NCBI RefSeq assembly: GCF_900089585.1 | Contig: NZ_FLRH01000003.1 | Span: 4,292,501 to 4,356,500 of the forward strand | Direction of reading: 5' to 3' | DNA length: 64,000 bases | From: Micromonospora sediminicola | GTDB taxonomy: Bacteria; Actinomycetota; Actinomycetes; Mycobacteriales; Micromonosporaceae | Part shown: positions 6,640 through 36,971 of the stretch, piece by piece | Layout of the letters: each line of letters begins with the position of its first letter | How positions within the stretch are numbered: position 1 is the first letter of the stretch | Notes under the pieces: generated by a model | Database searches by the model: none | What the model was told of the DNA's origin: nothing | The model's input: only the letters and a program-made list of their open reading frames with translations | Made by a program: the position numbers and the translations under genes

Positions 6640-7637
6640 CGGGCACCTCCCCCGGCCACCGCCAGCTCGTCGTGCCGGGCGGCAACCTCCTTCAACCGCT
6701 GGATGACCGCCTCGCGCACCTCCGGCGGTTCGAGCACCCGCACGTCCGGGCCGTAGCCGACGATCTGGCCGGCCAGGAAGTCGGCGTCGGCGTACGGCAG
6801 GACCAGCCGGTCGCCGTCCGGGCCGGCGTGGCTCTCCACCGCCCACCGGCGCAGCCCGGCGGCGCGCCCCGGCGCGGCAAGCACGGTCGCCCGGCCGGTG
6901 CGTTCCACCGGCCCGGACCAGCGGGCCACGTGGCTGATCAGGTCCACCCCGGCGGGCGGCTCGTAGGCGCCGGCGTCACCGGTCGCGCGGACCGTGCCGA
7001 CCACCCGGGACAGCCGGAAGCAGCGGGTCGCCGCACGGTCGAGGTCGTGGCCGACCACATACCACCGGCCGCGCCAGCAGACCACGCCCCACGGCTGCAC
7101 CCGGCGGCGGGTCGGTGCGTCCCGATCCGGCACCCGGTAGTCGAAGCTGACCTCGCGCCGGTCCCGCGCGGCGGCGGTCAGCGGCGCGAACGCGGGGTCG
7201 ACCGTCACCATCGGCTCCAGGCCCAGCGTGGCCTGCGGGTCCACGTCGATGCCGGCGGCCCGCAGCTTCGCCAGGCCGGACGACGCGGCGGCGGCCAGGC
7301 CGGCGTGCTGCCACAGCCGGGCGGCGATCCCCACCGCGGCGGCCTCGTCCGGTTCGAGTGGGATGTCGGGCAACGCGTATTCCCGGTGGGCGATCCGGTA
7401 GCCCGGCTCGGCGTCGAAGACGCTGGCCGTGCCCGTCTCCAGCGGCACCCCCAGCTCCCGCAGCTCGGCCTTGTCCCGCTCGAACTTGCGCTGGAACGCC
7501 TCGTGGTCCTTGGCGTCCTCCGGGTCGTGCTCGTAGCCGGGCACGGTCGCGGCGATCTGGGCGGCGGTCAGGAAACGCCGCGTGGACAGCAGGCAGATCA
7601 CCAGGTTGACCAGGCGTTCGGTACGGGTCCGGGACAC
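6636..7637 (-). CDS. pafB: WYL-domain transcriptional regulator PafB
   Basis: 333 residues with N-terminal RTERLVNLVICLLSTRRFLTA (winged helix) and a WYL domain (RREVSFDYRVPD...VVCWRGRWYVVGHD). It partners PafC as the DNA-damage response activator known from mycobacteria. GTG 7637 is chosen over TTG 7643 because TAGCGT lies exactly six bases upstream, giving a leaderless start. It is the first gene of the pafBC unit, and its stop overlaps the pafC start. Confidence 0.92.
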   Translation of the reverse strand: MSRTRTERLVNLVICLLSTRRFLTAAQIAATVPGYEHDPEDAKDHEAFQRKFERDKAELRELGVPLETGTASVFDAEPGYRIAHREYALPDIPLEPDEAAAVGIAARLWQHAGLAAAASSGLAKLRAAGIDVDPQATLGLEPMVTVDPAFAPLTAAARDRREVSFDYRVPDRDAPTRRRVQPWGVVCWRGRWYVVGHDLDRAATRCFRLSRVVGTVRATGDAGAYEPPAGVDLISHVARWSGPVERTGRATVLAAPGRAAGLRRWAVESHAGPDGDRLVLPYADADFLAGQIVGYGPDVRVLEPPEVREAVIQRLKEVAARHDELAVAGGGAR

Positions 7638-32496: not shown

Positions 32497-32960
32497 CCAC
32501 CGAGCCCGAGCTGCGCAGCGGCCAGCTCGCCGCCGCGGTGGGGGTCAACGTGCAGACGTTGCGCTACTACGAGCGGCGCGGGCTGCTCGCCGCACCCCGC
32601 CGTTCGCCGGGCGGACACCGCCTCTACCCCGCCGAGGCCGTCACCCTGCTGCGGATGGTCAAGGCCGCGCAACGCCTCGGCTTCACCCTCGCCGAGGTCA
32701 CCGACCTGATCCCGGCGGCCCGGCGCACGCCCCACGCCGACAGCGGCCTCCGGGCCCGCGCCCGGGACAAGCTCGCCGAGGTGGAGCAGCGGCTCGCCGA
32801 CCTCACGGTCGCGCGCGACACGCTCCGCGCCGCCGTCGCGGCCGGCTGCGACGACCTGGTCGCCTGCGCCGCCAGTCCCCGCTGCCCCCTGCCCTTCGAC
32901 CAGCTCGCCGAGCCCGCTGACCTGCGCCGCGCGACCGTCACGCTACGGTCGGACGCATGA
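32493..32960 (+). CDS. MerR-family transcriptional regulator
   Basis: 155 residues. N-terminal winged helix with [21 protein letters not shown] and GGHRLY, a dimerisation helix, and a C-terminal [19 protein letters not shown] with three cysteines, like metal- or mercury-sensing MerR proteins. Coupled by ATGA overlaps to the genes on both sides. Probably senses a thiophilic metal or reactive species at the promoter just upstream; the inducer is a guess. Confidence 0.88.
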
Positions 32961-33292
32961 CGGTCGCGCGTTCCATCCTGCTGTTCCTGGTCGCCGCGCT
33001 GGCCGAGATCGGCGGCGCCTGGCTGGTCTGGCAGGGCTGGCGGGAGAACCGGGGGCTGCTCTGGATCGCCGCCGGGGTGATCGCGCTCGGCCTCTACGGA
33101 TTCGTGGCCACCTTCCAACCCGACCCGAACTTCGGCCGGATCCTCGCCGCCTACGGCGGCATCTTCGTCGCCGGCTCGCTGGCCTGGGGCATGGTGGTCG
33201 ACAGGTTCCGCCCCGACCGTTACGACCTGGTCGGCGCGGCCATCTGCCTGGTCGGCGTCGCCGTCATCATGTACGCGCCGCGAGCGAGCTGA
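32957..33292 (+). CDS. YnfA-family (UPF0060) small membrane protein
   Basis: 111 residues, four membrane helices. [40 protein letters not shown] and [13 protein letters not shown] are the family blocks, and the family is related in fold to small multidrug-resistance transporters. It overlaps merR by four bases. In this setting it may export the compound or ion sensed by the MerR protein. Confidence 0.9.
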
Positions 33293-33297
33293 CCGCG

Positions 33298-34904: not shown

Positions 34905-35152
34905 CGGGAGACGGTAGGGACGGTCAACGGTCCGGCGCACCGTCCGGACGGCAGGCCCGCACCCTCACTTTCGTCAGGGTCCGAGGTCCGGAACCGGCAC
35001 TTCGCGCACCCCCTACGTCGGCTTCCCACCGTTGCGGGCGATGTGCCGTCGGGTGCCGGGCCGGAGTCCGTCGCGGGTCCGCTGCCCCACCGGTGCGGCG
35101 TGGGTCCTCTACGCTGGATCGACGACCGTCGTCGACAGTGGGGAGCCTCCGC
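34905..35152. other. Divergent intergenic region
   Basis: The 248 bases between the PAP2 gene and the two-gene RIYQV unit. TACGCT at 35110-35115 is a candidate -10 for the rightward genes. No repeat or RNA gene seen. Confidence 0.4.
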
Positions 35153-35587
35153 GTGGATCCGCAGATGTGGGCCCTGGCCAACACCGCGGGCACGACCGTC
35201 GTCGCGCTGCTGGCCACCGATGCGTGGTCGACGGCGAAGTCGGCTGTCGACACCGTCTGGCGGCGCTTCCATCCGGAACGCGCCGAGGTCGTCGAGGCCG
35301 AACTGGTGGACACCCGCGCGGATCTCGTCGCCGCCTCCGAAGAGGACCGCTCCGCCCTGGAGGCAGAGCTGGCCCAGCAGTGGCAGCATCGACTCCGCCG
35401 TCTTCTGACGCACGACCCGGAGGCCGCCGTCGCACTGCGGCACCTCTTGGACGACGACCTCGTTCCCGCCCTGCGGGCAACCGGCCGGACGTGGCGGGGT
35501 GACGTGACCCAGCGGGCCACGGCCAGCGACCACAGCCGGATCTACCAGGTGGGGCAGGGCGACCTCCACGTGCGGGGCGATGGCTGA
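35153..35587 (+). CDS. Small regulator-like protein with N-terminal hydrophobic segment and C-terminal RIYQV motif
   Basis: 144 residues from GTG 35153 with GGGGAG upstream. Residues 5-20 (ALANTAGTTVVALLA) form a hydrophobic helix, followed by DAWSTAKSAVDTVWRRF, a charged helical middle (EEDRSALEAELAQQWQHRL) and a C-terminal strand-like SRIYQVGQGDLHV. I recall many similar Streptomyces proteins next to signalling or conflict genes, with no known role. It overlaps the next gene by eight bases, and that protein carries the same motif near its N-terminus. Confidence 0.72.
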   Translation: MDPQMWALANTAGTTVVALLATDAWSTAKSAVDTVWRRFHPERAEVVEAELVDTRADLVAASEEDRSALEAELAQQWQHRLRRLLTHDPEAAVALRHLLDDDLVPALRATGRTWRGDVTQRATASDHSRIYQVGQGDLHVRGDG

Positions 35588-36971
35588 CGAGACGGGCCCG
35601 ACCGGCGCCGACCGGGTCGAGATGAACGCCGCCGCCCAGGACGGCGCACGGATCTACCAGGTGGCGCAGGGCACCATCTACGTCGACGCCGGGCAGGCGC
35701 GCTCGGCCGCGCAGCGGCTGGCGAGCATGCCGGTCCACCAGTCGGTCGACCAGCTCATGACGATGAGCCAGAATGACGCCTGCTGGGTCCTCACGGAGAT
35801 GGACGAGGCGTCCGCCGCACGGCGTCTCGCCGCGCTGCCCCGCGACCGGTGCGCGGCACTGCTGGCCGGCATGGACGAGGGGCTGGCCGCCAAGCGGCTG
35901 GTGCTACTCCCCCAGGAGCTGGCGGTCCACGTCCTCGGCGCGATGCCGGCCGTACGGGCCGCCGACCTGCTGGTGGAGATCCCGCCGGACCGGGTCCCGG
36001 GGCTGCTCGACGGGATCCCGCCGGACCGGTCGGCCGCGCTGCTGGGCAAGACGTCCGACGACCGGCTCTCCGCGCTCCTGCACCTCGAATCCTGGACGAC
36101 GGCGGACACCCTGCTGCGGCGTCTTCCCGCCGCGCGGGTGCTCGCCCTGTCGTGGCCGCCTCCGGCCGACACGGACCACCTGCCGCGGCGCAACCGCGAG
36201 TTGTGGGCCAGGCGCGTCGGAGCCGCGCACAGTCACGCCGCGCGCCGGATGGCCGCTGACCTGGCCGCCGTGCCGGACGACCGGGCACTCGCCGAGTTGT
36301 CCGCGCTTCCGGCCGGATCGGCCGTCCTCGTGGTCAACCGGCTCGACGAGACCCGGGCCACCGACCTGCTGTCCCGAGCCCCTCGGCCGTGGGTGGCCGG
36401 GCTGCTCGACCACGGCCTCTCGCAGGGGGCGAAGTTCCTGGTGCGGATGCCGCCGGAGCGGGCCGAGGCGGTGCTGGCGGCGATGTCGCCGCGACGGGCG
36501 GACCTCCTGCACGGGCCCCTGCGGATCGGCCGCCTGTCCCCGAGGGACGCCGCCGCCGAGCTGGCCACGGCTACTGTCGACGACGTCGTCCAGCTGGAGG
36601 CCCACCTCGGCAGCGCCTGGCTCTACGCCACGCTGTCCGCCATGGAACCGGCCCGGGTGGCCGCGATCCTCAGTGACAGGATGCTCTTCGACCACGTACC
36701 CGCCGACGTGCAGGTCTTCGTCGAGGCGATGCCGACGCCCCGCCAGGCGACGGTGCTGGCCTGGCTGCCACCGGCGCGGGCCGCCGCCGTGGTCGCCCGC
36801 CTCGGCGACGAACAGGTACGGCGCCTGCTGACCGAAATGCCCGCACAGTGGGGGGCCGTGCTCGCGGCGGGGATGCCCGTCGAGCGCCGCCGGCACATCC
36901 TGGACGGCCTGCCGAGGCAGATCCGGCAGCCGCTGACGGACGCCGCCCGGGCCCGGGGCACGGCGCTGTGA
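35580..36971 (+). CDS. Soluble MgtE-N-like helical repeat protein with RIYQV motif
   Basis: 463 residues. Residues 24-35 (RIYQVAQGTIYV) copy the C-terminal motif of the preceding protein. The rest is a superhelix of roughly 24-residue units of the type MPxxxAAxLLxxMPPDRxAxLL (examples IPPDRVPGLLDGIPPDRSA and MPPERAEAVLAAMSPRRA), as in the N-terminal domain of MgtE magnesium channels. The CBS and channel domains are absent and there is no membrane segment. It may be a scaffold or binding protein that works with the small partner. Function unknown. Confidence 0.75.
   Translation: MADETGPTGADRVEMNAAAQDGARIYQVAQGTIYVDAGQARSAAQRLASMPVHQSVDQLMTMSQNDACWVLTEMDEASAARRLAALPRDRCAALLAGMDEGLAAKRLVLLPQELAVHVLGAMPAVRAADLLVEIPPDRVPGLLDGIPPDRSAALLGKTSDDRLSALLHLESWTTADTLLRRLPAARVLALSWPPPADTDHLPRRNRELWARRVGAAHSHAARRMAADLAAVPDDRALAELSALPAGSAVLVVNRLDETRATDLLSRAPRPWVAGLLDHGLSQGAKFLVRMPPERAEAVLAAMSPRRADLLHGPLRIGRLSPRDAAAELATATVDDVVQLEAHLGSAWLYATLSAMEPARVAAILSDRMLFDHVPADVQVFVEAMPTPRQATVLAWLPPARAAAVVARLGDEQVRRLLTEMPAQWGAVLAAGMPVERRRHILDGLPRQIRQPLTDAARARGTAL

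Follow-up and report, generated by a model that had tools for sequence, protein, structure and literature searches.

A probable Bell/BASS-type receptor-effector pair of Micromonospora sediminicola with an MgtE_N-type alpha-solenoid at the position of the NLR receptor

Passages of three papers describe the Bell/BASS pairs of bacterial amyloid signalling as a small helical bundle bearing a C-terminal motif, encoded adjacent to or overlapping a gene whose product carries the motif at its N-terminus, and place them mainly in actinobacteria and cyanobacteria (PMC7889193, PMC8086366, PMC12261475). Sections of PMC12261475 and PMC7885112 agree with this description, and a passage of PMC8086366 reports amyloid-like aggregation of a RHIM-like BASS3 peptide. 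As originally defined, the receptor of such amyloid signalosomes is a NOD-like receptor (NLR), composed of an NTPase and repeats. Here, these systems are compared with a two-gene unit of Micromonospora sediminicola, located within a stretch of 64,000 nucleotides (assembly GCF_900089585.1, contig NZ_FLRH01000003.1, positions 4,292,501 to 4,356,500, forward strand) that is referred to below as the window. The unit resembles them in its actinobacterial host, in its adjacent and overlapping genes, in a motif of the published length (around 20-40 residues) that is C-terminal in the putative effector and N-terminal in the putative receptor, and in a small effector predicted to be an alpha-helical bundle (five helices, with a predicted local distance difference test score, pLDDT, mostly above 90). 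It differs in that the NLR is absent, the second protein consisting of MgtE_N-type solenoid repeats only. The initial annotation of the window knew of no described system of this layout, a statement not supported, as Bell/BASS pairs have been published; what is unusual, judging from the sequence, is a receptor that has no P-loop and consists of an MgtE_N alpha-solenoid.

The pair is probably a BASS/Bell-type receptor-effector module in which an MgtE_N-type alpha-solenoid has replaced the NLR and in which signalling would proceed by amyloid templating. This reading is preferred because the match between the small protein's tail and the N-terminus of its neighbour is partner-specific, because the partners of the small-protein family are often NLR-like, and because the layout is as published; the predicted ordered bundle with a motif-bearing tail, recurrence at seven loci and the retention of both genes add to it. 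The ratios of non-synonymous to synonymous substitution against the nearest relative are 0.22 for gene 1 and 0.36 for gene 2, and both genes therefore seem to be kept. Both open reading frames lie on the plus strand, confirming the annotated two-gene unit with a duplicated motif and an eight-base overlap, and the overlap is consistent with coupled translation. The features of the unit are as follows.

35153 to 35587, plus strand: gene 1, 144 residues from a GTG start; Bell-like putative effector (open reading frame, AlphaFold2 model, homologues adjoining NLR-like genes), with a predicted five-helix bundle (residues 3-109) and a disordered C-terminal tail (AlphaFold2)
35501 to 35572, plus strand: putative effector-side signalling motif in gene 1, DVTQRATASDHSRIYQVGQGDLHV (motif alignment, pair specificity, profile)
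35580 to 35587, plus strand: eight-base overlap of genes 1 and 2, ATGGCTGA
35580 to 36971, plus strand: gene 2, putative receptor of 463 residues, an MgtE_N-type alpha-solenoid preceded by an N-terminal motif and without a P-loop (open reading frame, Pfam, AlphaFold2)
35607 to 35687, plus strand: putative receptor-side signalling motif in gene 2, ADRVEMNAAAQDGARIYQVAQGTIYVD, modelled at low confidence as strand-turn-strand (residues 24-28 and 32-36)
35700 to 36059, plus strand: part of the solenoid matching solved MgtE N domains, gene 2 residues 41-160 (VIA-align)
36060 to 36953, plus strand: remaining helical repeats, gene 2 residues 161-458 (AlphaFold2, alignments), less conserved among relatives

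An alternative, longer GTG start for gene 1 lies at 35093. Protein 1 ends in ...DVTQRATASDHSRIYQVGQGDLHVRGDG, residues 11-36 of protein 2 read DRVEMNAAAQDGARIYQVAQGTIYVD, and the motif common to the two is about 24 residues long. The 13-residue motif first noted here is real, but longer than was thought: the alignment of the two proteins extends over 31 residues (TGRTWRGDVTQRATASDHSRIYQVGQGDLHV / TGPTGADRVEMNAAAQDGARIYQVAQGTIYV), and with the last 45 residues of protein 1 compared with the first 80 of protein 2 the local score is 67, a value reached by 0 of 20,000 shuffles. With a profile of the motif, genes 1 and 2 were the only matches in the source genome at E <= 0.05, and a third, variable partner carrying the motif, for which a search had been proposed, was not found there.

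A signalling joint formed by the small protein's tail and its neighbour's head should match better within pairs than between them, while the motif itself varies. Across 21 non-redundant pairs the tail scored a mean of 48.9 against the N-terminus of its cognate partner and 26.2 against those of non-cognate partners, a result reached by 0 of 100,000 permutations; the 50 residues before the tail, taken as a control, gave 20.9 and 21.6, respectively (reached by 82,672 of 100,000). Examples of such tail and head motifs are NAIQYNAPGGTMNI / QAAQYNAPGGSLTV (locus L061), SLNIFSGRDT / GTNIFSARDT (L056) and ARIYQAGRDQHI / ARIYQAGRDLYV (L048). The test started from 41 sources (40 loci and the window), which provided 30 pairs and, from these, 21 BLASTP clusters, two of them MgtE-type (the window together with L044, and L046). 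Loci without protein 1 by tblastn were dropped (L057, L059, L070, L082 and L083, the first three of which had been matched in the 300-genome search described below), as were those with no partner of at least 350 residues (L067, L073, L081); L045, L047 and L051 were set aside as fused or reversed. A looser first clustering of the pairs, which produced 3 clusters and no significance, was far too loose and was replaced by the BLASTP clusters. The earlier view of the motif as a homotypic joint between the two proteins is thus supported by covariation and by the restriction of the motif to two genes in the source genome.

Under the motif there is a 56-nucleotide direct repeat with 73% identity (35516-35571 and 35628-35683), and a recent local duplication of DNA without function could in principle account for the motif similarity. 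Over 16 pairs, identical motif residues share a codon somewhat above expectation (114 of 196, against 98.3 expected, s.d. 6.3), an excess too modest for gene conversion of the motif to be claimed. The near-identity of DNA reported for the motif core does correspond to an existing repeat, but it arises mostly from codon usage, with 11 of 15 identical residues in the window pair using one codon where 9.5 are expected. Moreover, the motif is kept in relatives whose receptors have only 21-55% identity, in other genera too, and it is partner-specific over the 21 pairs; the covariation speaks strongly against duplication, which is hardly credible as an explanation.

The relatives of the small protein, which form an actinobacterial family, provide the second line of evidence. 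In 300 related genomes, searched at E <= 0.001 for protein 1 and E <= 1e-10 for protein 2, protein 1 was matched in 36 and protein 2 in 5, one of which (genome G180) has no small protein. The pair was found in 4, protein 1 being far commoner and mostly located beside other receptors. Neighbourhoods were examined for all 38 places of protein 1 outside the window and for two more, and tblastn recovered the small protein at 35 of the 38. Seventeen non-MgtE partners were scanned: nine matched an NTPase family at E <= 0.01 (five above the curated cut-off), 11 contained TPR or WD40 repeats above the curated cut-off, and four (L049, L056, L074 and L080) had no family at E <= 0.01. A Walker-A-like motif is present in 19 of 30 partners. 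A search of plasmids with protein 1 matched seven records, six of which were examined (H4 was left out), and in four of the six loci the partner has a motif match (scores 54, 91, 57 and 46); for L154 and L155, which are plasmid loci unannotated at that place, the script found no partner. On Streptomyces plasmids the gene after the small protein is annotated as a NACHT protein (S. anulatus), an AAA ATPase (S. cadmiisoli) and a WD40 protein, in which Pfam recognised NACHT, nSTAND1 and nSTAND1. Protein 1 was not found in phages, nor was any relative confirmed when viral contigs were scanned by alignment.

Some loci of this family depart from the two-gene form. A single open frame at L051 (genome G129, contig C4, 4672-7251, minus strand) joins the small helical domain directly to an NB-ARC/TPR NLR. 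Partners of 390 residues without a Walker-A-like motif occur at L074 (6699-7868), where Pfam gave no match, and at L078 (5295-6464), and are a possible further receptor type without an NTPase. On a Streptomyces plasmid (L153, NZ_CP108083.1, 285241-295576) the small protein and an nSTAND1/WD40 partner lie beside TniQ, TnsA-like and Mu-type transposase genes, which suggests that this pair is carried by a Tn7-like element.

Alignment score and pair specificity would equally be expected of static homotypic docking, as first proposed for this locus, in which the motifs pair as ordinary beta-strands that tether protein 1 to the solenoid and neither polymerise nor serve in cell death, and the model of protein 2 does draw two short strands in the receptor motif. 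A clamp of this kind, however, needs no identical sequence on both partners, and in relatives this tail is found next to NLR-like proteins that have matching N-termini of their own, which is the published arrangement for amyloid signalling. Static docking is accordingly judged unlikely, although it is the strongest of the alternatives.

Protein 1 matched no family at cut-off in Pfam, NCBIfam or PADLOC, and neither protein matched any of the 5027 PADLOC models at E <= 1. Its AlphaFold2 model, built from a 30-sequence alignment, predicts five helices over residues 3-109 (pLDDT 91-97 as block means over residues 1-110), followed by a tail (residues 118-144) that carries the motif and is modelled as disordered (pLDDT about 33). 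The most hydrophobic 19-residue stretch, residues 5-23 in the first helix, has a moderate hydropathy of 1.03, and in four homologues the value is 1.2-1.4. MLKL and HeLo are absent among the fold-search matches listed, which is uninformative either way. The initial annotation had cast the small protein as a membrane-associated sensor joined to a repeat scaffold; the roles appear to be the reverse, the repeat protein occupying the place of the NLR receptor and the small protein that of the effector, with a hydropathy that reaches only 1.03. Elsewhere in the source genome (contig C4, L098, 6161-6457, minus strand) an open reading frame of 98 residues is weakly like the small helical family (profile E 6.9e-5), with no motif tail seen; this fragment was not counted as a relative.

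A small overlapping gene placed first, and a sub-threshold match of protein 1 to the BrnA antitoxin of Pfam (E 0.0013, 19.5 bits, cut-off 26.1), could point to a toxin-antitoxin-like pair in which one protein restrains the other stoichiometrically. The match is, however, below cut-off and covers residues 71-115, outside the motif, while homologues adjoin large NLR-like proteins and one locus has the opposite gene order, making such a pair very improbable.

The initial annotation of the second protein as MgtE-N-like repeats without CBS or channel parts was borne out. MgtE_N (PF03448) was matched at 5e-29 in four stretches (101.3 bits, gathering score 25.9), and no CBS or channel part is recognised, as MgtE_N is the only Pfam family above the curated cut-off; the MgtE_N, CBS pair and transmembrane channel that together make up an MgtE Mg2+ channel are represented by MgtE_N only. 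AlphaFold2, with a five-sequence alignment, predicts an alpha-solenoid over residues 43-458 (mean pLDDT 84.2, predicted template modelling score 0.68), preceded by the receptor motif as a low-confidence strand-turn-strand. In VIA-align against solved structures the top seven matches were all MgtE (Z 10.8-13.4, residues around 41-160), FliG came next (9.2-7.7), and unrelated repeats lay at 7.2 and below; the MgtE_N assignment is carried by the Pfam match, as such Z values alone are weak for repeat proteins. A phmmer search of PDB sequences with the MgtE-like part alone found no match, and a profile of that part matched weakly (best 0.00078). Protein 2 thus has the Pfam family and the fold of the MgtE N domain (e.g. 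2yvy, 8gpv) over residues 41-160, but differs from the channel in lacking CBS and channel parts, in its many more repeats and in the N-terminal signalling motif. Beyond residues 41-160 or so it is a continued helical repeat, with no copy of MgtE, and residues 161-458 are a candidate sensing surface. No Walker A motif or NTPase family was found in protein 2, and no Walker A motif in the other six MgtE-type receptors.

In MgtE, the N domain and the CBS domains act jointly in Mg2+ gating. With the same fold over residues 41-160, protein 2 could be a magnesium or ion sensor whose solenoid detects intracellular Mg2+ and regulates gene 1, irrespective of the role of the motif. Against this, protein 2 has no recognised CBS or channel part, and in four of six relatives the identity of the receptor is as low as 21-31%. 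MgtE_N repeats also follow a helix-turn-helix (HTH)-like stretch in three further actinobacterial proteins (L082, L096 and L177), so that MgtE_N looks like a generic sensing repeat, and an ion sensor is improbable. These three proteins resemble protein 2 in their C-terminal MgtE_N repeats and in having no recognised channel, and differ in the HTH-like stretch that takes the place of the motif (HTH_31 below cut-off in L082 and L096; by reading in L177) and in that no small effector was found adjoining them (tblastn, 11-14 kb around).

Receptors of the MgtE type that carry the motif were found at seven loci, five of them in four Micromonospora genomes.

Micromonospora: the window; genome G023 twice (L044 and L047); genome G152 (L045); genome G158 (L046)
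Streptomyces sp. NBC_01220, mobilizable plasmid: L150
Genome G744, another genus of the class: L176

The receptors range from 361 to 487 residues, with 21 to 55% identity to protein 2 among the relatives. Within the motif, Q27, A29 and G31 do not vary among the seven, and eleven of the twelve invariant columns lie before residue 108. All seven adjoin a homologue of the small protein (at L045 in one open frame), and six of the seven loci have the motif on both proteins. Adjacency of homologues, on which the docking proposal had been made to depend, therefore holds from the side of the motif-bearing receptor (7/7), but not from that of the small protein (36 genomes against 4 with the pair). The three MgtE_N proteins without the motif have no small partner within the 11-14 kb examined. 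At L047 (G023, contig C6, 6393-8279), the second pair of that genome, the order is reversed, with the receptor first. The apparent gene fusion at L045 was rejected; it is probably an assembly artefact, a collapse at the repeat, because a single ambiguous base (n, position 7140) sits exactly at the junction where the effector tail is lost, and L045 was not counted as carrying the effector-side motif.

The layout is rare. A single scan of genome_contigs with protein 2 found M. maritima only (91% identity), and among 160 genomes of the genus, four contain strong matches over most of the protein 2 profile, at five places in all. A class survey of 394 genomes gave one protein 2 match besides the present one, judged unrelated, and 2 of 392 genomes in the genus of G450 were matched, one with the motif. 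The plasmid relative L150 was found through the search with protein 1, protein 2 itself giving no plasmid match at E <= 1e-5. In six genomes of the genus (E of about 1e-9 to 8e-9) the match is confined to the middle of the profile, and the MgtE-like protein of the source genome itself (L083) suggests a housekeeping relative there. The candidate in G587 (L097) was rejected as another kind of MgtE-like repeat protein, having neither the motif nor a small partner.

Across the 160 genus genomes the motif profile matched 18 places in 10 genomes at E <= 0.05, 14 of these places being arranged as seven adjacent pairs. As the profile was built from several of the matched places, only the G121 pair, G090, an nSTAND1/WD40 NLR in G153, G152 and a chance-like match in G144 are independent of its training. 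The pairs in G121 (L146, 5046-6451, minus strand) and G090 (L147, 4592-6299, minus strand) have RIYQ-type motifs and partners of around 321 and 324-349 residues without a Pfam family, so MgtE_N may not be the sole receptor type without an NTPase. The motif-bearing upstream open reading frame of L147 has two hydrophobic stretches by eye.

The core of RHIM is Q-x-G, which the core of the pair motif resembles. Most MgtE-type pairs (not L047) contain the core [YF]Q[VIL][GA].G, akin to RHIM and BASS3 motifs (RIPK1/RIPK3, the fungal PP motif, Frankia BASS3), and QVG.G is common to the MgtE-type motif and the published BASS3 peptide; the difference is an aromatic residue at the first core position of the pair motif. 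For the tail of a Streptomyces homologue, 26 of 20,000 shuffles reach the score against the BASS3 peptide. Overall, the similarity is suggestive only.

Several observations weigh against assignment of the pair, by its described features, to Bell/BASS. Similarity of the window's own motifs to the BASS3 peptide is weak (its score is reached by 1,215 of 20,000 shuffles for the tail and 3,398 of 20,000 for the receptor head). Protein 1 has no clear transmembrane helix by hydropathy, and structure searches with it gave no confident match (no Foldseek E-value below 3.0; best VIA-align Z 5.0). Eight of the 17 scanned non-MgtE partners have no NTPase family at E <= 0.01 among the matches listed. Only 8 of the 21 tails score best against their true partner, several pairs having a common motif class, and six of the 21 pairs (L053, L060, L065, L076, L079 and L080) score 30 or less. 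Finally, none of the neighbours of the pair was recognised as a defence gene on reading the list of open reading frames, with three neighbours scanned. In M. maritima the pair has the same flanks (around 92% identity), and in G152 the left-flank stretch of the window (around 32940-33295) lies just before the pair, two intervening window genes being absent; the neighbourhood is therefore common but genes have been gained or lost. The flanking PAP2 gene was too variable for an empty-site test.

Under the favoured Bell/BASS reading, the resting receptor would keep its own N-terminal motif from assembling. Binding of a ligand to the solenoid would then allow several receptor motifs to meet in a cross-beta core, which could template the tail of protein 1; clustering would then switch on the helical domain of that protein, most likely damaging the cell's own membrane in programmed death or defence. 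Whether the locus represents an NLR-independent bacterial amyloid receptor, in which a solenoid derived from the MgtE N domain senses a ligand directly and frees a self-templating motif without a nucleotide switch, and whether this receptor type has been swapped with NLRs within one effector family and carried from genus to genus by plasmids, is an evenly balanced proposition. In the literature searched, MgtE and amyloid signalling never occur together, and co-mentions of MgtE and NACHT concern, by title, zeolites and Bacillus biocontrol. Broader searches also gave nothing among the matches listed. Papers outside these searches, including the original BASS paper (Dyrka et al. 2020, PMID 33058872), could describe such a receptor.

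The pair bears on a question stated in print, namely whether bacterial amyloid signalling occurs without NLRs, and it suggests that a domain known elsewhere as part of a magnesium channel may also signal in soluble form. Together with the six further loci it forms a compact test case, with an NTPase-free receptor simple enough to purify, for asking if amyloid templating can be gated by nothing more than a repeat domain.
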